64,000 nt of DNA from Archilochus colubris (Eukaryota; Chordata; Aves; Apodiformes; Trochilidae), in NCBI GenBank assembly GCA_023079485.1, contig CM041083.1, positions 65,839,196 through 65,903,195 of the forward strand, written 5' to 3'. Every line of letters begins with the position of its first letter. Positions within the stretch are counted from its first letter, which is position 1. The notes beneath the pieces are model-generated. The model ran no database searches. It saw only the letters and a program-made list of their open reading frames with translations, and was not told the origin of the DNA. Below, piece after piece: positions 23,821 through 62,924 of the stretch. A program made the position numbers and the translations under genes.

Positions 23821-23830
23821 CTGGCCCCAA

Positions 23831-23836: not shown

Positions 23837-23846
23837 GTCCCCGTGC

Positions 23847-25531
<1,685 letters not shown>

Positions 25532-25879
25532 CCTGGACTGGGGGGACACACACACAGAGAGAGGGGGCTTTAGGGGTGTCCCCCCCTCAAAATAAAATGG
25601 GGAGACCCTCAGGGAAAAAGAGGGGGTTCCCCTGGGAAAAGAGGGAGCAGCTCTGGGGGGGTTGGAGTGGGTTTTTCTGGGGGGTGGGAGGTGTTTTCTG
25701 CAACCCCTCCCCACCCAGAAGGGACTTTGGCAGCTGGCAAGGGGCCCTGGGGACAAAGGGCTGGGACACGCGTGTGGCGCTGGCAGCCACCTGGGGGGGC
25801 TCCCCCCAGCCCCCCCAAAGCCTTCCAGACCCCCCCCACTGCCCCCAACCCCCCAAACATTCCCCACCCAACTGGATCC

Positions 25880-26640: not shown

Positions 26641-26799
26641 TCCCTCCCCCCCCCTCCCCAAGGCCTTTCCCCCCACACACACCTCAGACCACCCTAAACC
26701 CACCCAGACTCCTCGCCAGGTCTCCCCGAACCCTCTCAGCCCCTCCGAGCCCGCTTCCTCTCCTCACAACCCCCCCGGATCCCCTTTTCTCCCCTCCGC

Positions 26800-26928
26800 C
26801 GCCCCTCACCGCCTCCTCACACTCCGCGGCCGCGCTGAGGAAAGGGAACGGCGCAGCGCGAGCGGCGTGGTGACGTCACCGCGTACGGAGGGCGGGAAGG
26901 GGGAGGGGGAGGAGGAGGCGCTGGCAAA
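26800..26928. promoter_or_regulatory. Bidirectional FAU / MRPL49 promoter with CRE and 5'-TOP start
   Basis: The two genes diverge across about 120 bp of CpG-rich DNA. A perfect palindromic cAMP-response/ATF element TGACGTCA lies at 26871-26878. On the minus strand the sequence CCCTTTCCTC at about 26835-26846 is a terminal oligopyrimidine start, expected for a ribosomal protein mRNA. FAU exon 1 then runs to a GTGAGG donor ending at 26810. On the + strand the MRPL49 ATG follows at 26929. Confidence 0.75.
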
Positions 26929-28729: not shown

Positions 28730-28744
28730 GACCCCCCCAAATAA

Positions 28745-30060: not shown

Positions 30061-30108
30061 CCCCCCCCCCAGTAAATGCTGCTGAAGAGCTCCTGGTGGT
30101 GCTGCCTC

Positions 30109-30114
30109 TTTATT
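30109..30114 (-). terminator. Polyadenylation signal of the PRPF39 paralog
   Basis: AATAAA on the minus strand, 108 bases beyond the stop codon at 30222-30224. Confidence 0.75.
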
Positions 30115-30221
30115 TACATCCAAAAAAAGGTAGAGAAAATGTGGGGTTTTGGGTGGTTTTCAGTAAAGGGGGGGTTAGAAAAAGGGGGTGAGGAAATCTG
30201 GGGGGGTCAGGGGGGGTCCCC

Positions 30222-33200: not shown

Positions 33201-36200
33201 GGGTGGCTGAAGGGTTCCTTGGGGGGATTAGAGGGTGGATGAGGGGACCTTGGGGTGGTTAAGGTGTCCCTGGGGGGATTAAAGGGGCCCCTGGGGGGGT
33301 TGAAGGGGTCCCTATGGTGGTTAAGGGGTCCTTAGGGGGGTTAAAGGGGCCCCTGGGAGGGTTAAGAGGGACCCTGGGGTCCATGAAGTGGTTAAAAGGG
33401 TCCTTATGGTGGTTAAAGCGGTCCCTGGGGGGGTTAAAGGGGTCCCTGGGGGGGTTAAAGGGGTCCTTGGGGGGGTTAAAGGGGTCCCTGGGGGGGTTAT
33501 GGGGTGGTTGAGGGGTCCTTGAGGTGGTTAAAAGGGTCCTTATGGTGCTTAAGGGGTCCTTGGGGTGGCTGAAGGGGTGCTTGGGGGGGTTAATGGGGTC
33601 CTTGGGAGGTTGAGGGGGGGTCATGGGGTGGTTGAGGGGTCCTTGGGGTGGTTAAAAGGGTCGTTATGGTGCTTAAGGGGTCCTTGGGGGGGGTTAAAGG
33701 GGTCCCTGGGGGGATTAACAGGGTCCCTGGGGAGGTTAAAGGGGTCCCTGGGGGGGTTAAAGGGGTCCCTGGGGGGGTTAACAGGGTCCCTGGGGGGGTT
33801 AACAGGGTCCCTGGGGGGGTTAAAGGGGTCCTTGGGGGGGTTAAGGGGGTCCCTGAGGTATTTATGGGGGTTTTCAGGGTGATTAAGGAGGTCCCTGAAC
33901 CAATTATGGGGTCCCTGGGGTGGTTCCAGTGTTTGTCCTCGAATTTGATCTTCCAGCCCCCAAAAGCAGCATTTTGGGGTGGAATTTGATGTCTCAGCCC
34001 CCAAAATGAAGCATTTTGGGGTGAAATTTCATGTGTCAGCACAAAGCTGGATCATTCTGGGGTGGAATTTGGATTTCTTGACCCCAGAGCTGGAGCGTTT
34101 TGGGGTGAACCACAACCTCCCCCCCCACCAAACAGAGCAGTCTGGAGCTTCAGCTCCATTTATGAGCCTTGTACCCCCCAAAACTCCATTTCCACTCCTT
34201 CTCCTTCCCCCAGCAACCCCAAATTGTCCCCAGTTTGGGTTCCCCTCACCTTGTTTCTCCTCGAAGGCAGCCCAGAGGAGGTGGATGTTGGGTTTTCTGG
34301 GGAGGTGGTAGCCACAGGCACGTTGGAAAACACTCCTGGCTCCTGTCACCGTGTGGCTTTCCAAGTATTTGGTGTACTGTTGTGTGGGAAGAAAAAAGCA
34401 AAACAAACCAAAACAACCAAAAAAACCTCACAAAAAAAAAAAAAAGAAAGAAAGGAGGGTGGGGGGAAAACCCAACCAAACCAAAAGAGGGAGGAAAGGG
34501 ATGGGCAGAGGGAGGATTTGCTCAGTTGGGTGGGGGGCACTCACGTTCAGACCCCTCTCTTCCGAATTTCCTGCTCCCTCTTAGGCAGGGGGGGAGGTGC
34601 CCCGGGCAGGGGGGGGGAAGCAGCAGCAAGATTTAAAAAAAAATGGGTGTTAGAACCATTTGGTTGTTTTATAAACTTCAAATCAAGAGTTCAAACCATC
34701 CAGAAGGGTTGGGGAAGGGGGGAGAGAAGCCCTGGAGGGAGCTGGGCTGGGTCGGTCGGAAGGTTCCCAATCCGTGCGGTGTGAGGGGTGGGATCTTTGG
34801 GATGTGGATTGGATTTTGGTTTATTTTGGGGGGGTTTTATGGCAGGCAAAGAGGCTGGAAAGGGGGTGGGGGGGTCTCACCTTGATCCAGAACTCCTCAT
34901 AGAGGGCACAGGCGATGACACAGCGCTCGAAGAGGACGATCGTGCGCTCGTGAGAGCCCGTGGCCATCTCATAGTCCAGGTAATCCCTCCAGTTCCTCAG
35001 CTGAGCTCTTTCCAGAGGCTTCACGTGGAAATAAGGACGTTTGATCTAGAAAAGAAAAAAAAAATGGGGTGAAAAAACCAGAAAATCAGAGAGTAGGTTG
35101 GCTTGGAAGGGACCATGAGATCACCCGAGTTTCAAGCGCTCCGCCGTGGGCAGGGACACTTCCCACAGCCCAGGCTGCTCCAAGCCCCATCCAAACTGGG
35201 CTGGAAAAGCTCCAGACAGCCAAAATTTCCTTGGAAACTGTTCCAGGGTCTCACCACCCTCACAGGGGAAGAACTTCTTCCCCATGTCCAACCTCAATCT
35301 CCCCTCTTCCACTTTTTTTTCCTCTTCCATTTCCCCCTCGTCCTCTCTCTCTCCACACACCCATGCAGAAAGTTCTATCCCAGATTTTCTGTAGCTCCTT
35401 TCAGGGATTGGAATCCCTGGAGCCTTCAGGGCTTGGGAAGTCACCAGGAGGTCACCTGGGAGCCTCCTCCTCACCTCAGGCACCAGACCTGGTGATGCCA
35501 GCACTGCCAGATCGGATGCAGCAGTGCCAGGAGCAGTGCCTGGGATCCCTTTGCCTCCACCATGGATGGGAATTCCATGGCCACCACTCCTTGGGAAGAC
35601 ATGGAAGACTTTTCTGGGGCTCCATCAGCCCTTCAAGGAGTGCCCCTTCATGGGTTTTGTCCTGGAATGGTTTAGAGAGGGACCTTGAAGATCATTTCCT
35701 CCAACATCTCTCCCACAGGGCACCTCTCATCCAAGGGTTGCTCCAAGCCCCATCCAAGCTGGGCTGGAAAAGCTCCAGGCAGCCAGAATTTCCTTGGGAA
35801 TCCTGTTCCAGGGTCTCACCACCCTCACAGGGGAAGAACTTCTTCCCCATGTCCAACCTCAATCTCCCCTCTTCCACTTTTTTTCCTCTTCCATTTCCCC
35901 CTCGTCCTCTCTCTCTCCACACACCCATGCAGAAAGTTCTATCCCAGATTTTCTGTAGCCCCTTTCAGGGATTGGAATCCCTGGAGCCTTCAGGCCTTGG
36001 GAAGTCACCAGGAGGTCACCTGGGAGCCTCCTCTTCTCCAGGCTGAACAACCCCAATCCCTCAGCCTGGCTTCCCAGGGAGCTGCTCAGCCCTCTGAGCA
36101 TTTCAGGGGCTCCTCTGGAGAGGTTCCAGGAGCTCCAAGTCCTTCTGCTCTTGGGGATTCCAGACCTGGAGACTGCTCCAGGTGGGATCTGCCAGGAGCA

Positions 36201-39200
36201 GAGCAGAGCAGGGGGTTGGGAGCTCCCCTCCCTCACCCATCTGGACACTTTTCTTCTGATGCAGCCCAGGACAGGGTTGGTTTCTGGGCTCCAAGCTCAC
36301 GTTCTGTCCTGGTTTGGGCCAGGAGAAAGGGGATTTTGTCTTGGACTTTTGCTTTTAGCTGAGTCTGTCCTGGTTTAGGGCCAGAAGAAAAGTAATTTTC
36401 TGTCTTGTCTTTTCCTGGCTTGATTTTCTGGCTTTTAGCTGAGTCTCTTGTAAGCAGAGCAAAAAAGTAGAGTTCAAAGCAGAAATACAAAACAAAAAAT
36501 CCCTTTTCTCCTGGCCCAAACCAGGACACGTCCAGGGCTCCCCTTGGAGCTTCTGGGCCACCACAAACCCCCCCAAACCCTTCTCCTCAGGGCTGTCCCC
36601 AAACCTTTTCCTGGGATTGCCTCCCCCCAGGTGCAGAACCTTCTAGAACCTTCTAGTCAGTTGGCACTGACTCCTTTCTCCAGGCTCTCCAGGTCCCTCT
36701 GGATCCCACCCCTTCCCTCCAGGGACCCCCCCACCCTGGTGTCACCAGCACCCAAGTGTCTGAGGGTGCCTTCAGCACCCTTGTCCGTGTTGCTCAGGAC
36801 CCAGAGCAGAGCCTGAGGAGCTCCCCTTGTTAAAAAGAGGGGGGTGAGGGTGGTTTTGGGGGGGGTTGAGTCCCCCCTACCTACCCCATCCTCAAAATTC
36901 CAACGTTTGCTGACTTCCGCCTCGTTCTGCGCGTAGATTTGTTGCCTCATGGAGATCACCAGCTCCCGGATTTTTTCCTGGTCTAAATCCTCCTGGGAAT
37001 GAGGAAAGGATAAAAAATAGATTCCCAAAAACCACCCCCATCACAGAAAACCTTTGATGGGGGGGAGACACCTCCAAGATCATCCACAGCCCAACCTGTG
37101 AGCACCTCACCTCCCAAGCACCTCCCTAAGGACCAGATCCACACATCCCGGAGAGACTTCCAGGGATTCTGACTCCAGCACTGCCCTGGGCAGATTATTC
37201 CAGGCTCTGACAACCCTTCCAGTGAATCTCAGAGGATTTGTGCTCTCTCAAGGAGCTTTGTTGCCCTTTTCTCTCCTTTTTCTTGTAGGGAGGTGCCCAG
37301 ACCTGAATCCAGCATTCCCAGGGTGGCCCCAGCAGTGCTGAGGACAGGGTGGCAACCACCCCCCTCTTCCTGCTGGCCACCTTGGCCACCTGCATCCTCT
37401 CCTGACCCCCATTTACTCAACCAACACCCCCATCCCCACCCTGCAGCTTTCTAACCCCACCCCCCACCTGGTTCTGACCCAAATGCAGGACCTGCCACTT
37501 GTCCCAACCCCTCCAGACCCCCCCCACGTTTGGGTTTCCCCACCCTCCAGCAAACCCACCCAGCTCGGGGTCACCTCCCAAATGGATTTTGGGGGCCCCC
37601 AATCCCCTCCCATCCCCCCCACCCCCCAACCCCCTCCTCTGGAGGTCCCTACCTGGCTCTCTGCCCCTGCTGCTTTCCCCTCGGTCCCGGGGGGCAAATC
37701 CTCTCCTGGGGGCACCTCTGTCCCCTCAGGCTCGGGGGGTTTGGGCACGGGGTCCGTGGCCAGTTTGGATTGGACCCACAGGAGCTCCTCGGGGGACAGA
37801 ATGTCTCGTGGGGGGTTGTGGAGGACGTGTTCCTTGAACCTGGAGAAGGGAAGCACAAAGCTGAGTCGCTGGGATGTTCTCCTGGGGGACATTTCCCCCC
37901 CGTGACCTTTCCCACGGGGACATTTCCCCCCCAGGATCTTTCCCACAGGGACATTTCCCCCCCATGATCATTTTCCCCCCGTCACCTTTCCACAGGGACA
38001 TTTCCCACCCATGATCTTTCCCACAGGGACATTTCCCCCTCCCCCATCATGATTCCCACATGGAATTTCCCCCCATGATCTCTTCCCACAGGGACAATTC
38101 CCACCCATGATCTTTCCACAGGGACATTTCCCCCCCTTTTTTTTTCCCCACAGGGACAATTCCCACCCATGATCTTTCCACAGGGACATTTCCCCCCCCC
38201 TTTTCTTTCCCCACAGGGACATTTCCCCCTCATGATCTCTTCCCACAGGGACATTTCCCCCCGTGATCTTTCCACAGGGACATTTCCTCCCCATGATCAT
38301 TTCCCCCCCGTCACCTTTCCACAGGGACATTTCCCACCCATGATCTTTCCACAGGGACATTTCCCCCCCCCCATCATGATTCCCACATGGAATTTTCCCC
38401 CGTGACCTTTCCCACAGGGACAATTCCCACCCATGATCTCTTCCCACAGGGACATTTCCCACCCATGATCTTTCCACAGGGAATTTCCCCCCCTTTTCTT
38501 TCCCCACAGGGACATTTCCCCCCCCTTTTCTTTCCCCACAGGGACATTCCCACCCATGATCTTTCCACAGGGACATTTCCCCCCCTTTTTCTTTCCCCAC
38601 AGGGACAATTCCCACCCATGATCTTTCCACAGGGACATTTCTCCCTCCCTTTTCTTTCCCCACAGGGACATTTCCCCCCGTGACCTTTCCCACAGGGACA
38701 ATTCCCACCCATGATCTTTCCACAGGGACATTTCCCCCCCTTTTTCTTTCCCCACAGGGACATTTCCCACCCATGATCTTTCCACAGGGACATTTCCCCC
38801 CCATCATGATTCCCACATGGAATTTTCCCCCGTGATCTTTCCACAGGGACATTTCCCCCCCCCTTTTTCTTCCCCACAGGGACATTTCCCACCCATGATC
38901 ATTCCTACAGGGACATTTCCCCCCCTTTTTCTTCCCCACAGGGACATTTCCCACCCATGATGTTTCCACAGGGACATTTCCCCCCCCTTTTCTTTCCCCA
39001 CAGGGACATTTCCCCCCATGATCTCTTCCCACAGGGACATTTCCCACCCATGATCTTTCCACAGGGACATTTCCCCCCCTTTTTTCCCCACAGGGACATT
39101 CCCCCCCTCCCCCTTCCTCATTCCCACAGGGAATTTTTTCCCCCGTGGGGATGTTACCCACTTTTCCCAGTGGTGGTTGTAGAGCTGGGTGGGCATGGAA

Positions 39201-42200
39201 AGGACCCTGTCGTAGATGCTGGTGACAGCCCTGAGGTCCCCTTGTCCCTTTTCCCACTCCACGTAGAGTTCCCACAGTTTATCCGACCTGAAATCCATCC
39301 CGGCCGCTGCCACCGCTGCCTCGAAAACCCTGGAAGTGGGAAAACCTCCAGTGGGATCTCCCAAAAAAACCCCAAAAACCTCCAGGGATGTGGGATGGAG
39401 CTCTGAGGGTTGGGGTGGGGGTGACCCAGAGCTGTGGGGAAAAGTTGGGAGGGTGGAATCCACCTCTTTTTTTCCCAGAAAAATGGATTGAAGGAAAAAT
39501 TGGGAATTTCCACCTCAAAATTCCCAGGAATTTTGGAGGGGGAGAATCATAGAATTAGCAGGGTTGGAAGGGACCTCAGAGATCATCTAGTCCAACCCTT
39601 GACCCACCGGAGCAGTTGCTAGACCATGGCACTGAGTGCCACATCCAGTCTTTTTTTAAATGTCTCCAGGGACGGAGAATCTACCACCTCACTGGGCAGT
39701 CCATTCCATAGCCTAATCACCCTCTCCGTGAAGAAATTCTTTCTAATATCCAACCTAAACCTCCCCTGGCACAACTTAAGACTGTGTCCTCTTGTCTTGT
39801 TGAAGGTCGTCTGTGAAAAGAGTCCAGTTCCCACCTCGCTACAGCCTCCTTTCAGGGAGTTGTAGACAGCAATGAGGTCTCCCCTGAGCCTCCTCTTCTT
39901 CAGGCTGAACAGCCCCAGCTCTCTCAGCCTCTCCTCATAGGGCCTGTGCTCGAGTCCCTTCACCAGCCTGGTTGCCCTCCTTTGGACCTGTTCCAGGACC
40001 TCTACATCCTTCTTAAACTGAGGGGTCCAGAACTGGACACAGGACTCAAGCTGTGGCCTCACCAGTGCTGAGCACAGGGGCAGAATCCCTTCCCTGGACC
40101 TGCTGGCCACACTGTTCCTGAGCCAGCCCAGGATGCCATTGGCCTTCTTGGCCACCTGGGCACACTGCTGGCTCATGGTCACCTTCTAGGTCCCTTTCTG
40201 CCACTCTGGAGCTCCCCATGGGGTTGTTGTGGCCAATATTCAGGATCCAGCACTTGGAATGTTGAAACTCATCCCATTGGGGCTACACCTGGCTGCAACC
40301 AGGATTCAGGGAGTTGCAGAGAGTGATGAGGTCTCCCCTGAGCCTCCTCTTCTCCAGCCTCAACACCCCCAGCTCCCTCAGCCCTTCCTCACAGGAATTC
40401 TGCTGGATCCCTTCACAGCCTCCTTGCTCTTCTCTGGACCTGCTCCAGCACCTCAATCTCCTTCCTGAGCTGAGGGGCTCAGAACTGGACACAGGACTCA
40501 AGCTGTGGCCTCCCCAGGGCTGAGCACAGGGGCAGAATCCCTTCCCTGGACCTGCTGGCCACGCTGTTCCTGATCCAGCCCAGGATGCCATTGGCCTTCT
40601 TGGCCACCTGGGCACACTGCTGCCTCCTCTTCAGCTTCCTGGCAAGCCAGACTCCCAGCTCCCTTTCTGCCACTCTGTGCCCAGCCTGGAGCTCCCCATG
40701 GGGTTGTTGTGTTGAACCTCATCCCCTTGGGATCAGCCCAACTCTCCAGTCTGTCCAGGGAGGGAGGGAGGGAGCCCCCAGGCTGCCCCTGGAGCCTCCT
40801 GTGAGTTCAGGAGGTCCCTAAATCACCTCTTGAGGTCCCTTCCGAGCTCGAATTCCTTGGAATTCCCTGGAAATGGGGACACTTACCCCCGGATTTTCTG
40901 GATGGATTCTGGGAGGTTCATATCCAGGGTGGACTGGAGGTAGGAGATGTAATGGATCCATAAATCCATGCTGAGGGGGATGGACTGGAGCCCCCTCTCA
41001 AAAACCTGGAGGGGGAGGAGGAGGGGACATTGGGGTTGTCCCCAAGTGTCCCCTCTGTGGGATTTAGGGGGAAAAATGGGGTGAAACAATCCCAAAATGG
41101 CAAAAAAAAAACCAGTGGACAAATCTCTCCCAAGGGGCTGGAATGCTGTTGGGATAAGAGAAGGGGATATGGTGTGGGAAACCCCCCAAAAAACCCCACA
41201 GGGACCCCCCAAAAGTCCCCTGGTGTCCCCACCCCCGAGGGGACAACAAGGGAAAAAAGCCCCAAAATACCCCAAAAATTTCCTCACCCCTCAACCACTG
41301 AAAAAGGGGAAAAAAGGGGGGGGCACCCCAAAAGTGTGGGAAACTCCTCTGTTTGCTCAATAAACAGGGGAAGAAAAAAAAAAGGGGGGGGACACCCTAA
41401 AAAGAGGAGAGGAACCCCCAAAATCTCACAATCTGACCAAGAAAAAGGGGGATAACACCCCAAAACCAGCCCAGGGAGCCCAAAAAGGTGCAGGAACCCC
41501 TAAAAGGGGGGAAAAAGGGGGATAACACCCCAAAACCAGCCCAGGGACCCCAAAAAGGTGTAGGAACCCCTAAAAGGGGGATAACACCCCAAAACCAGCC
41601 CAGGAACCCCTAAAAGGGGGGATAAAGGGGGATAACACCCCAAAACCAGCCCAGGGACTCCTGAAACACCCCTGAAGGGTGAAAAAAAAGGGGGTAACAC
41701 CCCAAAACCAGGGCAGGGACCCCCCCAAAGCCCCTCTGGGTGCCCAAGAAAGGGGGACATGAGAAGGGGGGCTCCCCCCCAGCCCCCCATCACCTCCTGG
41801 GCCTGTCGGGGGCAGTCGAAGCGTCGCTCCATGTCTGCATACTTCTTCCAGTATCCATAGCAATAGGGATAATGGGAGAAAAAGGCATCAAAAGCCTTCC
41901 TGGCAGCATAGAGGTGGTTCTGGAAAAGGATTTGGGGAGAAAAGAAGGGATTTAGGGTCAGGAAGGAAAAGGGAAGAGGCTCCCGAGGAGCTGCTTGAAT
42001 GGGTCCAGGTGGGTTTTAATTAATGTTTGAATGGGTGCAGGGGGGTTTTAATAGGCAAAAATAAGTTTTAAATAAGGTTTTCATGGATCAGGATCCATTT
42101 AAATTAAACTTTAATGGGTCTGGGGGGGTTTAATTAAAGTCTGATCAGGCCTGGGGGGGTTTTAATTAACACTTTAATGGCTCTGTGGGATTAGGGGGGG

Positions 42201-44522
42201 GGTTTAAGGAAGGTTTGAGCAAGAGCAGCAGCTCAGGGTGGGGCTAAAATCAAGATTTTAAGGAATTCTGAAGAGAGGCTGTGGCTCAGGGGGGTTTAAG
42301 GGATCAAAATTAGGGGGGGGTGTTAATTAATGTGTAATATTAATTTTTAATTAATGCTTGAATGGGTGCAGGTGGGTTTTAATAGGTTTGGGGGGGTCAG
42401 GTGGGTTTTAATAGGCAAAAATAAGTTTTAAATAAGGTTTTCATGGATCAGGGTCCATTTAAATTAAACTCTAATGGGTCTGGGGGGGGTTTAATTAAAG
42501 TCTGATCAGGCCTGGGGGGGTTTTAATTAACACTTTAATGGCTCTGTGGGATTAGGGGGGGGGTTTAAGGAAGGTTTGAGCAAGAGCAGCAGCTCAGGGT
42601 GGGGCTAAAATCAAGATTTTAAGGAATTCTGAAGAGAGGCTGTGGCTCAGGGGGGTTTAAGGGATCAAAATTAGGGGGGGTGTTAATTAATGTGTAATAT
42701 TTATTTCTAATTAATGTTTGAGTGGGGTCAGGTGGGTTTTAATAAGCAAAAATAAGTTTTAAATAAGGTTTTCATGGATCAGGATCCATTTAAATTAAAC
42801 TTTAATGGGTCTGGGGGGGGTTTAATTAAAGTCTGATCAGGCCTGGGGGGGTTTTAATTAACACCTGAATGGCTCTGAGGGATTAGGGGGGGTTTAAGGA
42901 AGGTTTGAGCAAGAGCAGCAGCTCAGGGTGGGGCTAAAATCAAGATTTTAAGGAATTCTGAAAAGAGGCTGTGGCTCAGGGGGGTTTAAGGGATCAAAAT
43001 TAGGGGGGGGTGTTAATTAATGTGTAATATTAATTTTTAATTAATGCTTGAATGGGTGCAGGTGGGTTTTAATAGGTTTGGGGGGGTCAGGTGGGTTTTA
43101 ATAGGCAAATATAAGTTTTAAATAAGGTTTTCATGGATCAGGGTCCATTTAAATTAAATTCTAATGGGTCTGGGGGGGTTTAATTAAAGTCTGATCAGGC
43201 CTGGGGGGTTTTAATTAACACTTTAACAGCTCTGAGGGTCTTGGGGTGGGTTTTAAGGAAGGTCTGGATGTGTCTGGGAGGTCAGGGTGGGTTTTAATTC
43301 AGATTTGAAAGGTTCTGAGAGGTCACAGGGGGGGTTTAACCACTCTTAGAATAATCTGGGGGGGTTAGTTAAGATTTTAAGGGGTCTGGGGGTTAAATTA
43401 ATGTTAAATTAATGTTTTAATAAAAGGTTTTTAATTACCTCTTGCTCCACGTACTGCAGGAGCTCAGTCCAGGCAGTGAAGTCGTGGGGGTTGCTTTGTG
43501 CTGCTTGCCAAAGCTTCTCAAATTCGGGGGGGTAGGTGAGGGGGGGCTCCTCAGGAGGGGGCTCAGGGTCCCTGGGGGGTGGGGGGTCCTCAGGAGCAGC
43601 TGGGGGGGGCTCCTCAGGCTCTGGGGGGGCCACGGCACCGTTGCAGCCCTGGGGGATGGGAGGGGGGGGGGCACTGGGAGCCTCCGTAGGGGGGGCTGGG
43701 GGAGGGGGTTCTGCCCTTGGGGCTGGGGGGGAGGGAGGGGGGAAATGGGGGGTTAAAAATAGGGGGGGGGGTCACAGGGACCTCAGTGGGTGCCCTGGTG
43801 CCCCCCCCCCACTCCCTGTCACCCCTCAACCCCCCCTTTCAGCTCCATTCTCAGCTTCCCCCTCATCGATCCCAATAATTCCCCCCCCAAAAGTCCCAGA
43901 CACCCCCACACCCCCCCATCCCATCTGCTTCCCCCAAATCTACCCCAAAACTCCCCCTAAAAGCCCCAGACACCCCCATTTTACCTTTTCCCCCCAAAAC
44001 TCCCAAATCTTCCCAAAAACTCCCCCCCCAAAGCCCCAGACACCCCCATTTTCCTTTTTCCCCCAAAACTCCCAAATCTACCCCAAAACTCCCCTCAAAA
44101 CTCCCAGACACCCCCATTTCCTTTTCCCCCAAAACTCCCAAATCTGCCCCAAACCCCCCCTAAATAAGGTCCCAGACACCCCCCTATCCCCCCCATTTTC
44201 CATTTTCCTCCCCAATACCCCCCCTAATTTAATAACCGGACTCCATAAAGCCCCAGAGCTGCCCCACAGCCCCGCTCTGCACCCATTAAACCCCTTTTTT
44301 ACCCCAAAATGCCCCAGCCCTGCCTCACAGCCCCCCCCTCACAGCCCTTCACGCTTCCCTCCCCCCAAACCCCCCCTGCCCCTTCCCACCCCCCCCCATC
44401 CTCCCCCTCTCACCCTCCGGTTCCCCGGGGGTTCCGCTGCCGCCGTCCCCGCCGCTCCCCAAGGCTCCTTCAGCCCCAGCGCGGCCCGGGCTGCCCGAGG
44501 CCTCCGGTCCCTCCGCCGCCAT
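30222..44522 (-). CDS. PRPF39: PRPF39 paralog, HAT-repeat U1 snRNP splicing factor (14 exons)
   Basis: Exons in transcript order: 44522-44414, 43722-43439, 41919-41794, 41005-40887, 39329-39162, 37839-37653, 36992-36885, 35045-34881, 34376-34250, 32838-32570, 31827-31643, 31553-31479, 30500-30371 and 30287-30222, giving 705 aa (human PRPF39 669). All junctions are GT/AG and phase-matched. The N-terminus is acidic and proline-rich. The HAT-repeat body follows, with [74 protein letters not shown] and [23 protein letters not shown]. The tail is Tyr/Asn-rich, ending [20 protein letters not shown]39 homodimerises in metazoans and aids U1 snRNP in 5' splice-site choice. The sequence is clearly diverged from canonical PRPF39, whose avian locus by synteny should lie elsewhere, so I read this as a second copy. 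Nearly all introns are minisatellite or CR1. Confidence 0.92.
30500..31440 (-). repeat. PRPF39-paralog intron 12 minisatellite
   Basis: Short units built on GGGGTGAAAAGGGGGAATT and GGGGATAAAGGGGG (+ strand) fill the intron. Confidence 0.95.
31850..32400 (-). repeat. PRPF39-paralog intron 10 minisatellite
   Basis: About eight copies of a 60-75-bp unit with GGGTTTGGGGTCTTCAAA and GGAGAGACTTGGAAGAGG (+ strand). Confidence 0.95.
32870..34190 (-). repeat. PRPF39-paralog intron 9 minisatellites
   Basis: Up to about 33890 the intron is tens of copies of a 20-bp unit GGGGTCCCTGGGGGGGTTAA with variants. From 33950 to 34110 a different unit, about 55 bp with AGCATTTTGGGGTGGAATTT, takes over. Confidence 0.95.
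35090..35470 (-). mobile_element. CR1-like fragment in the PRPF39-paralog intron 7
   Basis: Minus-strand CR1 3' region: AAGGGACCATGAGATCA, GGGCAGGGACACTTCCCAC, CTGTTCCAGGGTCTCACCAC and AAGAACTTCTTCCCCATGTC are the reverse-complement CR1 consensus with substitutions. Most of it lies inside the inverted-duplication arm. Confidence 0.8.
35480..35590 (+). pseudogene. Degenerate copy of SYVN1 exon 12 inside the PRPF39 paralog
   Basis: The sequence from CAGACCTGGTGATGCCAGC through CTCCACCATGGATGGGAAT matches SYVN1 exon 12 (53126-53019, minus strand). The acceptor side CACCTCAG is retained, but the donor is lost: TTTGGTAAG has become CTTGGGAAG, and extra bases interrupt the codons before it. It lies antisense to the PRPF39 paralog. 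Confidence 0.85.
35690..36840 (-). mobile_element. CR1 element interrupted by LTR fragments
   Basis: Minus-strand CR1 sequence runs from CTCATCCAAGGGTTGCTCC through CTCTTCTCCAGGCTGAACAA, GATGCAGCCCAGGACAGGG and CTCCAGGTCCCTCTGGATCC, matching successive parts of the CR1 ORF2. It is broken at 36304-36528 by retroviral LTR pieces. Confidence 0.85.
36304..36528. mobile_element. Palindromic cluster of LTR 5' ends
   Basis: Two direct copies of an LTR start (TGTCCTGGTTTGGGCCAGGA at 36304 and TGTCCTGGTTTAGGGCCAGA at 36366) are followed by an inverted one ending TCCTGGCCCAAACCAGGACA at about 36528, so the outer ends are inverted repeats. The family is that of the LTRs at 160 and 13994. Its mirror image is at 51520-51743. 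Confidence 0.8.
37080..37420 (-). mobile_element. CR1-derived sequence in the PRPF39-paralog intron 6
   Basis: The minus strand resembles the C-terminal CR1 ORF2 and 3' region (reads like [13 protein letters not shown]) with substitutions. It also appears inverted at 50630-50970. Confidence 0.6.
37880..39140 (-). repeat. PRPF39-paralog intron 5 minisatellite
   Basis: More than thirty units of 25-50 bp built on CCACAGGGACATTTCCCCCC and CCCATGATCTTT (+ strand). The same array appears inverted at 49400-50160. Confidence 0.95.
39545..40190 (-). mobile_element. CR1 LINE, ORF2 C-terminus, minus strand
   Basis: A 187-aa frame at 39619-40182 encodes an unbroken CR1 ORF2 C-terminus ([80 protein letters not shown]), followed by the AATTCTATGATTC-type tail at about 39546. 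It lies in PRPF39-paralog intron 4. With no stop in this part, it is one of the younger CR1 insertions here, though 5'-truncated. Confidence 0.95.
40190..40760 (-). mobile_element. Second CR1 fragment, tandem to the first
   Basis: A diverged CR1 copy ([40 protein letters not shown]) has frameshifts and lacks the 3' tail. It sits directly upstream of the 39545-40190 copy in the same orientation. Confidence 0.9.
41030..41770 (-). repeat. PRPF39-paralog intron 3 minisatellite
   Basis: The right half has units of about 55-70 bp containing ACACCCCAAAACCAGCCCAG and GGAACCCCTAAAAGGGGG (+ strand). Confidence 0.9.
41990..43400 (-). repeat. PRPF39-paralog intron 2 long tandem repeat
   Basis: About four copies of a 335-360-bp AT-rich unit, each with AAATAAGGTTTTCATGGATC, TTTAATTAAAGTCTGATCAG, GAGCAAGAGCAGCAGCTCAG and AAGGAATTCTGAAGAGAGGC (or AAAGAGGC). 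Unlike the C/G-rich minisatellites of the other introns it is AT-rich and highly regular. Confidence 0.95.
43740..44400 (-). repeat. PRPF39-paralog intron 1 minisatellite
   Basis: At 43860-44170 four or five units of about 70 bp contain CCCAAAACTCCCAAATCT and GCCCCAGACACCCCCATTTT (+ strand). The flanks are C-rich without clear periodicity. Confidence 0.85.
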
Positions 44523-44700
44523 TTCGCCTCCAAGCCTGAGGCGCCGGAATACCCGGATGAGGAAACCAGCGAAGCGCGGGAAGGCTGCGCCAGAGCGGCC
44601 CCAGGGGCGGAAGTAGCGGTCGCAGCGCCCCCTAGCGCGCTGGAGACTTCCGGGTTCTCGCCTATCACCATGGAGACGAAGGGGAAGAGAGGCCAGAGCG
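44523..44700 (-). promoter_or_regulatory. Promoter of the PRPF39 paralog with CTCF-, ETS- and RFX-like sites
   Basis: A CpG-rich stretch immediately upstream of the ATG. It contains CGGAAGT (ETS type, about 44608) and CTTCCGG (ETS, about 44647). CGCAGCGCCCCCTAGCGCGC at 44621-44640 is, in reverse complement, a close match to the CTCF core. ATCACCATGGAGAC at 44664-44677 resembles an RFX X-box palindrome. SYVN1 transcription ends just upstream. Confidence 0.6.
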
Positions 44701-44739
44701 GCCTTGAAGGAAGGAACGGCGGCCATTTTTACTGCGATT

Positions 44740-44745
44740 TTTATT
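44740..44745 (-). terminator. SYVN1: Candidate SYVN1 polyadenylation signal
   Basis: AATAAA on the minus strand, about 1.25 kb beyond the SYVN1 stop. This gives a 3' UTR of ordinary size that ends just short of the PRPF39-paralog promoter. Confidence 0.6.
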
Positions 44746-45988
44746 CTGCAGTATTTACAACGGAGCTATTAAAACTTTATACATTATTTACAACTTAAAT
44801 AAATCCTCTGCTGCTGACACCCGCCCGAAAAAGAAATGCTTTTGGGGTGAAAAAGACCAAGTTTGGTGTCAAGTTTGCTTGACTTTGCATCTTCTTTCCC
44901 TGCCCCACCCCGAAAAAGAAGGAAATTTGGAAGAATCAACCAAAAAACAAACCCAACCAAGCAACCAGAAACATCCAACGTGAAACCAAAGCACAAAAAC
45001 TCAACATTTTGCCTCAGAATGGTTCAAAAAACACCCAACTGGGGTAAAAACAACTCCACGAAGAGGCCCGGTGACGTTTGCCCCTCACTGATTGGTGTTT
45101 CTCCTGTAGTCACTTGGGTTTGGGTCAACCAGAACCCATCATTTTGTTGGGTTGTCCTAAACCCAAGGCCTGGAGAGGGAAATGTGCCTCGTTCCCAAAA
45201 AACCACCATTTCCCCCCAAAAAAACCAAGAGGCTCTTTGGGATCCAACGCCGCCATTTCCCATCTGGGATTGGATTCCCTGAGAGGTTTCGGATCCGTCA
45301 GGCACTGAGGAGCCCCGGGAGAAGAAAGGGGGTGGGAAAGGGGGAGGTTCCGGAGCCTCCCGGCACCGTTGGAACCGGTTCCGCGGCGCCATGTTGGGTT
45401 TGGGGGGCACCCGGCTGCCCCACGTTGGCCCCCTGGGGGTGTTTTGGGGTGGGAAGTGGCTTTCTGAGGGGAGGACTAGTTAATACTGTTAACCAGCTAG
45501 TTTACTAAGGAAAGAGAGGGGTGGAAAATTCCCAAAATTCCTGGGGAAAATTCCCAGCTCGAAGTGGAGGCATCTCCAGGAGGGTTTGGCCGCCATGATG
45601 GTGTCGGTGACACGGGAGGAGAGCCCTGGGAAAGTTTTGGGTGGAAAAGAGGGGATTTTGAGCAATGTCAAGGGGTGTTTGCTCACCCATCCCAAAGTGG
45701 GGGTGGTCTCCCCCCCCACCATCTCCAAACCCCACCCCAGGACCTGCCTGGGGGGGGGGGAGGGAAGAGAATTGAGGTGAAACCAAGGAGAAATAGGGCA
45801 AAAAAACCCAGAAAAGGCTCAAGAAACACAGCTCTTGGCCACCAAAAAACTCCAGAAAGGTTTAGGGAGGTAACCAGGAACAGGGGTGGCATCTGGAAGG
45901 GCTTTTGGTGGGAAAAAACTTAAATCAAGGAAAAGGCCCCACCCGAGGGTCAGGAGCACCCGAGGGATTTCGGTGCCCCCCGGGGGGG
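44746..45988 (-). other. Presumed SYVN1 3' UTR
   Basis: This stretch follows the SYVN1 stop and has no repeat array, unlike the introns. It contains frames on both strands without family similarity. A 3' UTR is the simplest reading. Confidence 0.55.
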
Positions 45989-48900
45989 TCATTGGGGGGA
46001 GGGGGTCCCCAGTTTTTGGAGGCGTCGGCGACGCAGCTCGGCCGTGTCGGGTTCCTCTGGGGAGGAGGAGCCTTCAGCACCCCCCGTGGCCTCCTCTTCC
46101 TCCTTTCTCTCCTCTTCCTCCTCCTCCTTCTTCTCCTCCTCCGGGGCGGCCAAGGCCTCAGCGCCTGCCGGCGCAGGGGATTCTGGGAAGGAGAAAAGTT
46201 CAGCACTGGGAGGGAACTGGGGGAGAGGCAACGATCCCAGTTTGAACTGGGAGGATGCCCCAGGGGGGGGTTGCCCCCTCGGTGCACCCTCACGGGCCTG
46301 GGGTTCCCCAATCCCTGGAGATCCCCAACCCCTGGAGGTCCCCAACCCTTGGAGGTCCCCAATCCCTGGAGATCCCAACCCTTGGAGGTCCCCAATCCTT
46401 GGAGGTCCCCAATCCCTGGAGATCCCCAACCCTTGGAGGTCCCCAATCCCTGGAGATCCCAACCCTTGGAGGTCCCCAACCCTTGGAGGTCCCCAATCCC
46501 TGGAGGTCCCCAAACCCTGGAGGTCCCCAATCCCTGGAGATCCCCAACCCTTGGAGGTCCCCAACCCTTGGAGGTCTCAACCCTGGAGGTCCCCAACCCC
46601 TCAGGGTCCCCAACTCCCCAAGGTCCCCAACCCCTGGAGGTCCCAACCCCTGGAGGTCCCCAATCCCCCAGACATCCCCAATCCTGGAGGTCTCCAACCC
46701 CTGGGAGATCCCAACCCTTCAAGGTCCTCAACCCCTGGAGAGAGATCCCCAACTCCCAAAGGTCCCCAACCTCTCCAGGTCCCCAACCCCCAAAGGTCTC
46801 CAACCCCTGGAGCTCCCCAACCCCTGGAGCTCCCAAGCCCTGGAGATCCCAAACCTTGGAGGTCCCCAACCCCTGGGAGATCCCAACCCCCCAAGTTCCC
46901 CAACTCCTCAAGGTCCCCAACCCCTGGAGAGAGATCCCAAACCCCCAAAGGTCCCCAACCTCTCCAGGTCCCCAACCCCCAAAGGTCTCCAACCCCTGGA
47001 GCTCCCCAACCCCTGGAGCTCCCCAACCCCTGGAGCTCCCAAGCCCTGGAGATCCCAAACCTTGGAGGTCCCCAACCCCTGGGAGATCCCAACCCCCCAA
47101 GTTCCCCAACTCCTCAAGGTCCCCAACCCCTGGAGAGAGATCCCAAACCCCCAAAGGTCCCCAACCTCTCCAGGTCCCTAACCCCTGGAGATCCCCAGCC
47201 CTTGGGCATCCCAATCCCTGGAGATCCCAACCCCTAGGAGATCCCCAACCTCTCCAGGTCCCCAACCCCTGGAGATCCCCAACCCCTGGAGATCCCCAAT
47301 CCCTGGAGATCCCCAACCCCTGGAGATCCCCAACCCCTGGAGATCCCCAACCCCTGGAGATCCCCAATCCCTGGAGATCCCCAACCCCTGGAGATCCCCA
47401 ACCTCTCCAGGTCCCCAACCCCTGGAGATCCCCAACCCCTGGAGCTCCCCAACCCCTGGAGATCCCCAATCCCTGGATGTCCCCAGCCCTTGGACATCCC
47501 AGGCCCCGGAGATCCCAAGCCCTGGGAGATTCCCAACCTCTCCAGGTCCCCAACCCCTGGAGATCCCCAATCCCTGGATGTCCCCAGCCCTTGGAAATCC
47601 CAATCCCTGGAGATCCCAACCCCTAGGAGATCCCCAACCTCTCCAGGTCCCCAGCCCCTGGAGATCCCCAGCCCCTGGAGATCCCCAGCCCCTGGAGATC
47701 CCCAATCCCTGGACGTCCCCAGCCCTTGGACATCCCAAGCCCTGGAGATCCCAAGCCCTGGGAGATTCCCAACCTCTCCAGGTCCCCAACCCCTGGAGGT
47801 CCCTCCCTCACCGGTGGCAGCCGTGGTGCTGGTGCTGGGCTCGGAGCTGCTGGGTGAGTGGGGGGCGTTGGGCTCCTCAGGGCGAGGGGCCTGGGGGGGT
47901 CTGGGCTGAGGAGCCAGATTGGGGGACCTAGGAGGGACTCTGGTCAATTGCAGGAAAAAAACAAACAAAAAAACCTCCCCCAAAAACCCCCCAAAACCCA
48001 AAACAACAACAAAAAACCCAAAAACAAACAAGAAAAAAACCAAAACAACCCCCCCCCAAAAAAACCCCACCCAAACAAAAAAAAAAAACCCAAACAAAAA
48101 ACCCCCAAACAAATAAAAAACCAAAAAAACCCAAACCAAAAAATCCCAAACCAAAAAAACCAAACCAAAAAACCAAACCAAAAAAAACAAACCAAAAAAA
48201 CCCAAACCAAAAAAACACAAAAAACCACCAAAAACCCACAAAAAAACAAACAAAAAACCCAAAAACCAAAAAACCAAAGCAAAAAAAACCAAAGAAAAAA
48301 AAAAAACAAAGCAAAAACAAAGCAAAAAAAAAACAAAGCAAAAAAAACAAAGCAAAAAAAACAAAGCAAAAAAACCCAACACAAACACAAAAAACCGAAC
48401 ACAAAAAACAAAATAAAAAACAACCAAAAAACCACCAAAACAAAAAAACCCCAAGTCAACAAAAAAATCCAAATCCAAAAACCAACACAAAAAAACCAAA
48501 CCAAAACAAACACAACAAAACCCAAAACCAAACCAGACACAAAAAACCCCAAAACCAAACCAACCAAAACCAAAAAAACCCCGAACAAAAAACCACCAAA
48601 ACAAAAACCACCAAAATAAAAACCACCAAAACAAGAACCAAACAAAAAAAATGACAAAAAACAACCAAAACAAACAAAAAAAAAAACAAAAAAGCCAAAA
48701 AAACCCCAAACCAAACCCCAACAAACCCAACAAAACAAAACCCAACAAAACAAAACCCAACAAACCCAAAACCCAACAAACCCAAACCCCAACAAACCCA
48801 ACCCAAAACCAAACAAACCAAAACCCAACACATCAAAACAAAAAGCCCAAACCCCAACAAACCCAAAACCCTCCCAAAAGTTGTATTTTCGGGCGTTTCT

Positions 48901-51900
48901 CTCCGTTCCCCTCCCGGGATGAGGTCCTGGTGCTGCAGTGCCTCACCTGAGGCTGGCCAGCACCGTCAGGTACTGGCTGATCTGCAACATGGCGGCGTCC
49001 AGCAGGATGTTGATGTTCTGCAGACACTGCAGCCTGGCCTCCAGGTGCTGCCTCTCCTGGCCCTCCATGGCACGCTGCTCCTCCTCTGTCAGCCCAAAGA
49101 ACCCATCTGGAGGCATCGGCATGGGGGGGAATCCTGTGGGAAGAGAAGGGAGGTCAGGGAGAGGCACTTGGAGCCGGAGGCAAGATGGCGCCGGAGGAGG
49201 CGCTTGGGGTGACCCAGGGGTTGGTGTCCCACAAGGGGAGCTCCTCGGGGTCTCCTCTGGGGTGAATCCTGGGGGGGCCTTTGGGAATCTGTTTTTTTAT
49301 CCTCTCCTCATTCCCTGGAGGATTCTGTCCCCTGAGGAGCTCCTGTGGGTCCAATCCAAACTGGCCACGGACCCCGTGCCCAAACCCCCCCGAGCCTGAG
49401 ATCATGGGGGGGAAATGATCACAGAGGGGAAATGTCCCCGTGGGAAAGGTCACGGGGGGAAATATCCCTGTGGCAAAGATCCTGGGGGGGAAATGTCCCC
49501 GTGGGAATGAGGAAAGGAGGGGGGGGAATATCCCTGTGGGGAAAAAAGGGGCAGAAATGTCTCTGTGGGGAAAAAAAGGGGGGGAAATGTCCCTGTGGAA
49601 AGATCATGGGTGGGAATTGTCCCTGTGGGAGTGGTGACTGGGGGGAAATATCCCTGTGGGAATCATGATGGGGGGGGAATGTCCCTGTGGGAAAGATCAT
49701 GGGTGGGAAATGGCCCTGTGGAAAGATCATGGGTGGGAAATGTCCCTGTGGGGAAAGAAAAGGGGGGGGGGAAATGTCCCTGTGGAAAGATCATGGGTGG
49801 GAAATGTCCCTGTGGGAAAAATCGTGGGGGAAAATATCCCTGTGGGGAAAAAAATGGGGGGGAAATGTCCCTGTGGAAAGATCATGGATGGGAAATGTCC
49901 GTGGAAAGGTGACGGGGGGGAAATGTCCCTGGAGGGGGAAAAAAAAGGGGGGGAAATGTCCCTGAGGGAAAGATCATGGGTGGGAAATGTCCCTGTGGAA
50001 AGATCACGGGGGGAAATGTCCCTGTGGGAATGATCATGGGGGGGAAATGATCACAGAGGGGAAATGCCCCCATGGGAAAGTTCACGGGGGGAAATATCCC
50101 TGTGGGAAAGATCCTGGGGGGGAAATGTCCCCATGGGAAAGGTCACGGGGGGGAAATGTCCCCCAGGAGAACATCCCAGGGACTCAGCTTTGTGCTTCCC
50201 TTCTCCAGGTTCAAGGAACACGTCCTCCACAACCCCCCACGAGACATTCTGTCCCCCGAGGAGCTCCTGTGGGTCCAATCCAAACTGGCCACGGACCCCG
50301 TGCCCAAACCCCCCGAGCCTGAGGGGACAGAGGTGCCCCCAGGAGAGGATTTGCCCCCCGGGACCGAGGGGAAAGCAGCAGGGGCAGAGAGCCAGGTAGG
50401 GACCTCCAGAGGAGGGGGTTGGGGGGTGGGGGGGATGGGAGGGGATTGGGGGCCCCCAAAATCCATTTGGGAGGTGACCCCGAGCTGGGTGGGTTTGCTG
50501 GAGGGTGGGGAAACCCAAACGTGGGGGGGGTCTGGAGGGGTTGGGACAAGTGGCAGGTCCTGCATTTGGGTCAGAACCAGTTGGGGGTGGGGTTAGAAAG
50601 CTGCAGGGTGGGGCTGGGGGTGTTGGTTGAGTAAATGGGGGTCAGGAGAGGGTGCAGGTGGCCAAGGTGGCCAGCAGGAAGAGGGGGGTGGTTGCCACCC
50701 TGTCCTCAGCACTGCTGGGGCCACCCTGGGAATGCTGGATTCAGGTCTGGGCACCTCCCTACAAGAAAAAGGAGAGAAAAGGGCAACAAAGCTCCTTGAG
50801 AGAGCACAAATCCTCTGAGATTCACTGGAAGGGTTGTCAGAGCCTGGAATAATCTGCCCAGGGCAGTGCTGGAGTCAGAATCCCTGGAAGTCTCTCCGGG
50901 ATGTGTGGATCTGGTCCTTAGGGAGGTGCTTGGGAGGTGAGGTGCTCACAGGTTGGGCTGTGGATGATCTTGGAGGTGTCTCCCCCCCACCAAAGGTTTT
51001 CGGTGATGGGGGTGGTTTTTGGGAATCTATTTTTTATCCTTTCCTCATTCCCAGGAGGATTTAGACCAGGAAAAAATCCGGGAGCTGGTGATCTCCATGA
51101 GGCAACAAATCTACGCGCAGAACGAGGCGGAAGTCAGCAAACGTTGGAATTTTGAGGATGGGGTAGGTAGGGGGGACTCAAACCCCCCCCAAAACCACCC
51201 TCACCCCCCTCTTTTTAACAAGGGGAGCTCCTCAGGCTCTGCTCTGGGTCCTGAGCAACACGGACAAGGGTGCTGAGGGCACCCTCAGACACTTGGGTGC
51301 TGGTGACACCGGGGTGGGGGGTCCCTGGAGGGAAGGGGTGGGATCCAGAGGGACCTGGAGAGCCTGGAGAAAGGAGTCAGTGCCAACTGACTAGAAGGTT
51401 CTAGAAGGTTCTGCACCTGGGGGGAGGCAATCCCAGGAAAAGGTTTGGGGACAGCCCTGAGGAGAAGGGTTTGGGGGGGTTTGTGGTGGCCCAGAAGCTC
51501 CAAGGGGAGCCCTGGACGTGTCCTGGTTTGGGCCAGGAGAAAAGGGATTTTTTGTTTTGTATTTCTGCTTTGAACTCTACTTTTTTGCTCTGCTTACAAG
51601 AGACTCAGCTAAAAGCCAGAAAATCAAGCCAGGAAAAGACAAGACAGAAAATTACTTTTCTTCTGGCCCTAAACCAGGACAGACTCAGCTAAAAGCAAAA
51701 GTCCAAGACAAAATCCCCTTTCTCCTGGCCCAAACCAGGACAGAACGTGAGCTTGGAGCCCAGAAACCAACCCTGTCCTGGGCTGCATCAGAAGAAAAGT
51801 GTCCAGATGGGTGAGGGAGGGGAGCTCCCAACCCCCTGCTCTGCTCTGCTCCTGGCAGATCCCACCTGGAACAGTCTCCAGGTCTGGAATCCCCAAGAGC

Positions 51901-54900
51901 AGAAGGACTTGGAGCTCCTGGAACCTCTCCAGAGGAGCCCCTGAAATGCTCAGAGGGCTGAGCAGCTCCCTGGGAAGCCAGGCTGAGGGATTGGGGTTGT
52001 TCAGCCTGGAGAAGAGGAGGCTCCCAGGTGACCTCCTGGTGACTTCCCAAGCCCTGCAGCTTGGTTTCCAGGGATTCCAATCCCTGAAAGGGGCTACAGA
52101 AAATCTGGGATAGAACTTTCTGCATGGGTGTGTGGAGAGAGAGAGGACGAGGGGGAAATGGAAGAGGAAAAAAAGTGGAAGAGGGGAGATTGAGGTTGGA
52201 CATGGGGAAGAAGTTCTTCCCTGTGAGGGTGGTGAGACCCTGGAACAGGATTCCCAAGGAAATTTTGGCTGCCTGGAGCTTTTCCAGCCCAGCTTGGATG
52301 GGGCTTGGAGCAACCCTTGGATGAGAGGTGCCCTGTGGGAGAGATGTTGGAGGAAATGATCTTCAAGGTCCCTCTCTAAACCATTCCAGGACAAAACCCA
52401 TGAAGGGGCACTCCTTGAAGGGCTGATGGAGCCCCAGGAAAGTCTTCCATGTCTTCCCAAGGAGTGGTGGCCATGGAATTCCCATCCATGGTGGAGGGAA
52501 AGGGATCCCAGGCACTGCTCCTGGCACTGCTGCATCCGATCTGGCAGTGCTGGCATCACCAGGCCTGGTGCCTGAGGTGAGGAGGAGGCTCCCAGGTGAC
52601 CTCCTGGTGACTTCCCAAGCCCTGCAGCTTGGTTTCCAGGGATTCCAATCCCTGAAAGGAGCTACAGAAAACCTGGGATAGAACTTTCTGCATGGGTGTG
52701 TGGAGAGAGAGAGGACGAGGGGGAAATGGAAGAGGAAAAAAAAGTGGAAGAGGGGAGATTGAGGTTGGACATGGGGAAGAAGTTCTTCCCCTGTGAGGGT
52801 GGTGAGACCCTGGAACAGGATTCCCAAGGAAATTTTGGCTGCCTGGAGCTTTTCCAGCCCAGCTTGGATGGGGCTTGGAGCAACCCTTGGATGAGAGGTG
52901 CCCTGTGGCAGGGAGGTTGGAGGAGCTCATCCTTTCTAAACCATTCCAGGACAAAACCCATGAAGGGGCACTCCTTGAAGGGGTGATAGAGCCCCAAAAA
53001 AGTCTTCCCAAGGCTTACCAAAGAGTGGTGGCATTCCCATCCATGGTGGAGGCAAAGGGATCCCAGCCACTGCTCCTGGCACTGCTGCATCCGATCTGGC
53101 AGTGCTGGCATCACCAGGTCTGGAAGCTGACGTGAGGAGAGGGACATGAGGGTGGTGGGAGGTGTAAAATGGTGGGGGGAACCCTGTTTTGTTTTGTTTT
53201 TTTAAAGAGAACCCACCTGAGCCACTGCTGGAGCCAGAGCTGCCGTTTCCAGAGCCATCGTGTGGTGGACCACCACCAGGAGCTGGTGGGAAGGGACCCA
53301 TTGGTGGCCAGAAGGGAAACATTCCCGGTGGGAAGGGGGGGATGAGTCCCTGGGGAACTATAGAGGGGGAGAAGAAAGGTGGTGAGAACCCCAAAACCCC
53401 CCAAAGAAACCAGGTGACCCATCCCAGCTCCACGGGGACACCAGTCAGGGTGCCATTGGGTGTCAGGGTGACCTCGGGGAGGAGAAAGGACTCACAGTTT
53501 GGGGGCTGAGGAACTTGGGGGGGCTGGGGCTGAGGTTGGGCTTGCTCTGGGGGTTCTGGAGGGGTCTGTGTGGGGAGGGAAGCCCTGAGGATGTCCATAC
53601 GGCAGGTGGGACACGTCTGCTGGCGCTGGAACCACGACCGCAGGCAGCTGGGGAGGAGAAGGACACCAAAAACTACACCAAAAAATTCTGGAAATGACTC
53701 CAGAACAAGCCCTGCGCCCCCCCATGGATGCTGAGCTCACCAAAAATGCCAAAAAAACCCCCAAAAACCCCTAACCCTGAGGGCACACCTGGTGTGGAAG
53801 ATGTGGTTGCAAGGCAGGCGCTTGGCGCCCGTCACCATCTCCTCGCGGCAGATGATGCAAACGTTGTCCATGGCCTGCAGCTCCTCAGGGGTGGCATCAG
53901 GGTAGCTGGGGGGATGAGGAGGGGACATCTGAGGGGACAGCCACCATTCCTGACATTCCAGGAATGGTTGGGAAGGGAACGGGACAACTTCTGGATCCTC
54001 CCCACCACCCACCCACCCGCCCATTCTCCTCCTCCAGGGTTCTGGTGAAGGGATCTGGAGGGGGATCCCCCAGCTCGGAACCCTCCAGGCTCCTTCCCAC
54101 CTTTTTCCTGAGGGAAAAAGATGGAAGTTGGGAATTCCTGAAGGGGGATTTTACCTCAGGTGGCCTCCCAGGGAGAGGGGAGGCCGTGGGGGGAACTTAC
54201 AGAGTGTTCATGTTGCGGATGGCCCGACGGGACATGATGGCATCTGTCACTGCTTTCTTGAACTGCCTGGAAGGGAACAGACATGGTGGCACCAAACTGG
54301 GCTGTGGTGAGCTGGGGTGGCACCAAACTGGGCTGAGGTGGCACCAAACTGAGCTGGGGTGGCACCAAACCGGGCTCGGGTGAGCTGGGGTGGCACCAAA
54401 CTCAGCCTGGGTGGCACCAAACTCAGCCTGGGTGGCACCAAACTGAGATCTGGTGAGCTGTGGTGGCATCAAACCACCAGAGGTGACACCAAACTGAGCT
54501 GGGGTGGCACCAAAGCACCAGAGGTGTCCCCAAAGTGAACTCACCTCATGGCCAGGTACATGGGGCGGATGGCAAAGAGGGGGAAGGTGTGGACTTTGAT
54601 CATGATGGTCATGAAGGCCACGTAGAGCAGGACTTTGATGAACCCTGAGGGAAAGGAGAAACATCAACGATTTGTTCTTGGCTCAAGTCAGAGGTTGGTT
54701 GAGGTCATTTGGGTCCCATCCTCTTGGACAAGCATGTGGGATGAGAGCTCCAAGATCCCCTTGGATCCATCCTTGGATGGCAAAGAGGAGAAGGAGGAGG
54801 AGGCAAAGAGGAGGAGGAGGCAAAGAGGAGGAGGAGGCAAAGAGGAGGAGGAGGCAAAGAGGAGGAGGAGGCAAAGAGGAGGAGGAGGAGGAGGAGGCAA

Positions 54901-62914: not shown

Positions 62915-62924
62915 GTAGGTGCCA

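Follow-up and report, generated by a model that had tools for sequence, protein, structure and literature searches.

Inverted arms shared by the neighbouring PRPF39-like and SYVN1 genes of Archilochus colubris: probable recombination-dependent copying between two genes

In the genome of Archilochus colubris, a PRPF39-like gene (PRPF39L) and SYVN1 are neighbours, both on the minus strand, and each contains inverted sequence that belongs to the other. The stretch that we analysed, called the window below, comprises 64,000 nt of assembly GCA_023079485.1 (contig CM041083.1, positions 65,839,196-65,903,195, forward strand); the structure is known from this assembly alone. The transfer went both ways: two exons of PRPF39L lie within SYVN1, and a second version of SYVN1 exon 12, named exon 12', lies within PRPF39L. 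We consider it probable, at roughly 60%, that the two arms holding these pieces are a real inverted duplication that arose by recombination-dependent copying between the two genes.

BLASTN of the window against itself aligned 35176-38628 (arm A) with 52882-49411 (arm B) in inverted orientation, at 94.7% identity (E=0). The outer bounds of the arms are 35173-38628 for A and 49411-52885 for B, and an alignment made window by window proved them collinear throughout. Their core, A 35173-37878 against B 52885-50170, is about 2.7 kb long and 99.1% identical over aligned bases, with 2678 matches, 25 mismatches and 7 gap events (16 gap bases); the A stretch 35176-37878 differs from B by 14 transitions and 10 transversions. 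The remainder of each arm is a diverged minisatellite with pairwise matches of 80-86%, longer in A than in B. An earlier reading of this DNA, made from its letters and hereafter called the sequence-only reading, had described a near-identical inverted duplication. Both alignments bear out the duplication; near-identity applies to the core, but not to the minisatellite. The avian neutral rate is near 2e-9 per site per year. At that rate, the core divergence of 0.92% would correspond to roughly two million years since the core was last homogenised, as an order of magnitude only. The earlier suggestion of a recent event or of gene conversion is supported.

Exons 1-10 of PRPF39L, as modelled, encode 554 aa without a stop and keep GT-AG borders. 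The modelled protein resembles the PRPF39 structure 6g70 (E=1.1e-192) and contains the Pfam families HAT_PRP39_N and HAT_PRP39_C. Searched against its own genome, it gave 17 matches, 11 in the window and six at 54-72% identity on another contig, C8. The latter are a second PRPF39 gene, so that the gene in the window is a PRPF39 paralog, as already proposed. Full matches to exons 6 and 7 were confined to arms A and B; the seventeenth match is the fragment of exon 6 found at arm B's inner edge. The joined SYVN1 stretch resembles synoviolin chains in the Protein Data Bank (E=4.6e-164).

The copies of PRPF39L exons 6 and 7 in arm B retain their AG/GT borders and are identical to the native exons, as had been judged by eye. 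We dropped an argument for selection based on this identity: zero differences over 295 exonic bp are unremarkable at the core rate (P=0.064). The reciprocal piece comes from a tandem unit of about 570 bp, U, present twice in SYVN1 with 92.6% similarity. Its second version has no GT donor in either arm, and exon 12' is therefore dead as an exon. Thus the exchange of gene pieces proposed by the sequence-only reading was found in both directions, with one correction: the copy of SYVN1 exon 12 is indeed present in arm A, but its source is the tandem second copy, the native exon lying outside arm B. PRPF39L and SYVN1 both still look intact, because each foreign piece lies antisense to its host gene, and they stand in intact order in the assembly.

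The outer edge of the arms falls within a repeat. A search of the whole genome with the core, limited to scoring the top 40 of 8025 first-look candidates, returned 78 matches. Two were full-length at 98-100%, and 38 further ones fell within query positions 493-1131 at 72-84%; the others were shorter or weaker, four of them being the hairpin insert aligned with itself. Part of the core thus belongs to a dispersed repeat family, which is presumably CR1-like. A mobile element carrying the arms was rejected as an explanation: although the CR1-like part is dispersed, the full-length matches at 98-100% among the candidates scored are only two. The second CR1-like copy in arm A is split by an insert (36300-36534, also at 51513-51747) whose own inverted arms, about 53 bp long, resemble the start of an element at position 158.

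On the A side, the CR1-like copy over the edge runs unbroken through position 35173, and 6/6 copies fetched from the genome (L003-L008) align as a single piece across it. Identity between A and B is 24/41 and 18/46 to the left of the edge, and 60/64, then 94/94, to its right. Against family copy L004, A scores 37/61 and 36/50 on the left and 50/64 on the right. A tract edge that lies in register inside homologous sequence, as it does on the A side, characterises repeat-mediated non-allelic gene conversion. Such an edge would be what homologous conversion is expected to leave, and what end joining is not.

The inner edge, in SYVN1 intron 12, is of a different make. Three short patches derived from PRPF39L follow each other there (Table 1), overlapping by 3 bp and 1 bp, and every jump between them steps backward on the template. 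The arrangement fits template switching. A junction composed of several short, templated pieces that share microhomology is characteristic of microhomology-mediated break-induced replication (MMBIR). Outside the satellite, the patches differ from their source at 4/122 positions, compared with 25/2703 in the core (P=0.034; P=0.0009 when the satellite piece is included). This hints that the core was kept alike by later conversion and the non-collinear patches were not.

We propose the following course of events. SYVN1 intron 12 and PRPF39L intron 7 would each have borne an old CR1-like repeat, in opposite orientation, and these repeats may have paired through strand invasion. SYVN1 sequence, consisting of a CR1 piece, the dead exon 12' and CR1, would have been converted into PRPF39L intron 7. 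Repair synthesis would have carried sequence from PRPF39L (intron 7, exons 7 and 6, and the minisatellite of intron 5) into SYVN1 intron 12, terminating in short backward template jumps, and the core was probably kept alike by later gene conversion. Strand invasion, break-induced replication, the order of events and the later conversion are steps that we infer.

Within the core, a 5-bp indel and three substitutions occur in both units U of arm A but in neither unit of arm B; at three further sites, each arm distinguishes unit 1 from unit 2. Variants shared between paralogous units in this way would most simply result from within-arm copying of one unit onto the other after the arms last exchanged. 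In the exon 12' part, with unit 1 as outgroup, arm B has the derived state at 3/3 differences between the arms.

Table 1 Coordinates of the arms, their genes and related features in the window. Limits of the minisatellites are approximate.
Feature	Positions	Strand	Remarks
PRPF39L	30220-44522	-	Exons 1-10 modelled; C-terminal exons by eye at ~30.2-30.5 kb
PRPF39L exon 6, native	37653-37839	-	187 bp; frame open with flanking exons; AG/GT
PRPF39L exon 7, native	36885-36992	-	108 bp; AG/GT
SYVN1	45986-57731	-	Exon 13 at 48947-49133; extent and last two exons judged by eye
SYVN1 exon 12, native	53019-53119	-	Beyond arm B; donor GTAAGC intact
Arm A core	35173-37878	+	In PRPF39L introns 5-7; holds exons 6 and 7
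Arm B core	50170-52885	-	In SYVN1 intron 12; copies arm A core in inverted orientation
Minisatellite, A side	37886-39107	+	PRPF39L intron 5
Minisatellite, B side	49406-50160	-	80-86% to A
PRPF39L exon 6 copy	50209-50395	+	In SYVN1 intron 12, antisense to SYVN1; 100%
PRPF39L exon 7 copy	51055-51162	+	In SYVN1 intron 12, antisense to SYVN1; 100%
Unit U1 (exon 12 and CR1-like part), SYVN1	52576-53142	-	92.6% to U2
Unit U2, tandem copy with dead exon 12'	52008-52588	-	Donor lost
U2 copy in arm A	35463-36039	+	Dead SYVN1 exon 12' in PRPF39L intron 7
CR1-like copy over outer arm edge	35067-35413	-	Unbroken at 35173; PRPF39L intron 7
Second CR1-like copy, arm A	35668-36722	-	35668-36300 and 36534-36722, split by insert 36300-36534
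Inner-edge patch 1	49280-49324	+	PRPF39L exon 7 acceptor region (51018-51061), 91%
Inner-edge patch 2	49322-49400	+	Partial PRPF39L exon 6, 97.5%
Inner-edge patch 3	49400-49507	+	Minisatellite edge before exon 6 (50032-50139), 95.4%
SPDYC-like exon, native	62743-62914	+	Spy1 domain
SPDYC-like inverted copy	14811-15232	-	Exon part 15079-15232, and intron minisatellite

Several points weigh against this reconstruction. Core divergence is uneven, with 17/1003 to the left of position 36177 and 8/1700 to its right (P=0.003), or 11/997 and 8/1700 without the six substitutions of the cluster (P=0.09). Because the left core is the more diverged, a single event followed by uniform conversion would not fit well; the sequence slightly favours an older transfer from SYVN1 to PRPF39L. 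At the outer edge, the B side adds little to the case, since its similarity to the CR1-like family is weak and extends at most about 36 bp beyond the edge (B against L004, 20/44). A Pfam scan of a similar CR1-like open reading frame in the window found no family, the name CR1 being our assumption. Finally, the comparison of patches with core at P=0.034 is a weak test, and the patches could be older or copied with errors.

Part of these data would also suit a single ordinary inverted segmental duplication, ageing neutrally with no later conversion and no special process. One recent event could account for a core divergence of 0.9%, and plain ageing could yield three polarised U2 differences all derived in B. 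We nevertheless find this explanation rather unlikely. Each arm has a piece native to the other gene, for which one copying step is insufficient unless earlier transfers are added. Nor would an ordinary duplication account for an edge in register inside a repeat, for the variant cluster shared within arm A, most simply a product of conversion, or for divergence that varies along the core, with the cluster or, less clearly, without it.

The sequence-only reading saw its main alternative in an assembly artefact, either a false inverted duplication or a collapsed or duplicated haplotype. GC-rich minisatellites are difficult to assemble, and the window lies in a GC-rich island within a 200-Mb contig whose joins are uncertain. 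Against this, the window is without any N, and the flanks of the arms differ, save for weak repeat similarity at the outer edge. The arms themselves differ at 25 sites, in 7 indels and in satellite length, and their edges bear in-register repeat and microhomology signatures. No third copy of the core was found among the 40 scored candidates from the 1.1-Gb, 182-contig assembly, and no spare haplotig among the matches of the genome search. With two places found for the core and a single one for SYVN1 exon 13 across the whole assembly, a duplicated haplotype is an unlikely source of the second arm. Altogether, an artefact appears quite improbable, and less likely than the sequence-only reading supposed.

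With the threshold of 42.1 bits that Hron et al. 2026 (PMC12954441) used, 24 exon stretches of the window, not all of its exons, were screened (21 with borders modelled by eye, three approximate). Six copies, from 4/24 stretches, scored above it. One, of SYVN1 exon 12, is direct and local; the other five are inverted, lie in another gene or between genes, and score 133-371 bits. Chance is excluded as the source of these inverted copies, because the best exon match per shuffled window reached only 30.2-42.1 bits (n=30).

Local stuttering of exons and introns by tandem slippage, as on avian dot chromosomes, could explain the direct tandem copy of SYVN1 exon 12 in its own intron, and tandem repeats abound in the window (255 rows in Tandem Repeats Finder, including overlapping ones). 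Yet slippage gives direct local copies, while 5/6 copies here are inverted and outside their own gene, and as an origin of the arms it is very hard to sustain. Staggered breaks at the two ends of an inversion would each leave an inverted duplicate and so yield inverted repeats at two points. This origin was rejected as practically untenable: it predicts a swapped order of the duplicated pieces where the arms are collinear, and the middle segment is uninverted relative to either gene. A G-quadruplex cause in the arm minisatellite is likewise unsupported, with no simple G-quadruplex motif in either array; the whole window has 98 G and 104 C motifs. A search of a plasmid collection with the arm gave no match, as expected, and a tRNA scan found none.

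The second inverted case in the window concerns a SPDYC-like exon, its gene name being presumed and its Spy1 domain found in a Pfam scan. This exon, together with its donor side and intron satellite (62761-63174), has an inverted copy 48 kb away (15232-14811); identity is 93.9% across the full length and 99.4% within the exon. A genome search returned two near-identical places (100% and 98%); the other 48/50 matches were weaker, nearly all of them adjoining satellite units. The copy is abutted at 14811 by the second member of a direct pair (158-976 and 13992-14811, 97.7% over 820 bp), whose ends we take to be like long terminal repeats.

From the map, crossing over between arms A and B would flip the segment 38.6-49.4 kb. 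As the sequence-only reading foresaw, both genes would then be broken: PRPF39L exons 1-5, severed from exon 8 onward, would run into the copies of exons 6-7 in arm B and end there, and SYVN1 would keep exons 1-12 but lose exons 13-15. The assembly itself shows no flipped form. The arms are in this sense a standing hazard to SYVN1 and PRPF39L alike. Moreover, because both pre-mRNAs are transcribed from the same (minus) strand, they are complementary over the arms, near-perfectly so over 2.7 kb. In the PRPF39L mRNA, 295 nt are perfectly antisense to SYVN1 intron 12. Judging from this complementarity, the two transcripts could form double-stranded RNA in trans.

The GC-rich island around the window measures about 1.1 Mb (about 65.14-66.225 Mb of the contig), with samples of 0.45-0.65 GC. 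It sits in an AT-rich 200-Mb contig, whose flanking samples range over 0.34-0.48 GC and mostly fall below 0.42. A degenerate array close to the left side of the island contains 237 TTAGGG but 0 CCCTAA in about 3.8 kb; no N occurs in the 20 kb examined at the island's right border. The island looks like dot-chromosome sequence inside a large chromosome, by real fusion or by misjoin. In the window, WDR74 (+), FAU (-) and MRPL49 (+) were tentatively identified by eye at 19300-30200, near PRPF39L, SYVN1 and SPDYC, an order that presumably resembles human 11q13. Putative fragments of a HEAT-like repeat gene lie at 5000-11000 and are presumably maestro/MROH-like.

Two separate inverted, out-of-gene cases thus occur in one window, whereas the published account of instability rests on a screen for direct copies within their own gene. 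If such copies are common, template switching in replication or repair becomes likelier than slippage, and there would be a route to gene breakage and loss on dot chromosomes. Our observations may in this way extend the newly described instability of the tiny bird chromosomes. More tentatively, and with appreciable doubt, one may imagine that, in dot-type regions of bird chromosomes, templated copying switches strands, acts non-locally and carries whole exons from gene to gene in inverted orientation, with stuttering as its local face, and that complementary transcripts such as those of SYVN1 and PRPF39L could pair in trans as a result. Among titles and abstract openings of open-licence literature, we found no report of inverted inter-gene exon copies on dot chromosomes. 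Open-licence literature likewise yielded nothing on PRPF39 with SYVN1 in chicken, nor on dot chromosomes with minisatellites.

Among known systems, MMBIR, as outlined in the parts of its literature considered here (PMC2621351, PMC8421209), resembles the closing edge in its short templated pieces and 1-3 bp overlaps. It differs in the outer edge, which here lies in repeat register and not at a microhomology. For inverted Alu repeats in yeast, the sections used of one study (PMC10164571) report that, with single-stranded DNA, levels of rearrangement are similar at spacings of 12 bp and 30 kb, and that suppression sets in only beyond 25% heterology. Diverged and distant inverted repeats can thus interact, and the opposed repeats described here are about 17 kb apart; the outcome in yeast, however, is a dicentric chromosome, and here a stable exchange of copies.

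The closest comparison is exon stuttering. The portions of Hron et al. 2026 (PMC12954441) available to us define it as direct tandem copying into the neighbouring intron and regard the expansions as strictly local. Those portions describe a screen of each exon against the introns of its own gene only, and suggest repair under replication stress or gene conversion as the cause. The two phenomena share GC-rich introns full of imperfect repeats, intact host exons, and the copying of exon parts with a splice site into introns. Since that screen, as described there, compared exons with own-gene introns and kept direct copies, the copies found here fall outside both its reach and the definition of stuttering: 5/6 are inverted and lie elsewhere, where the published cases are direct and in the adjacent intron, and two whole exons have moved together with the intron between them.

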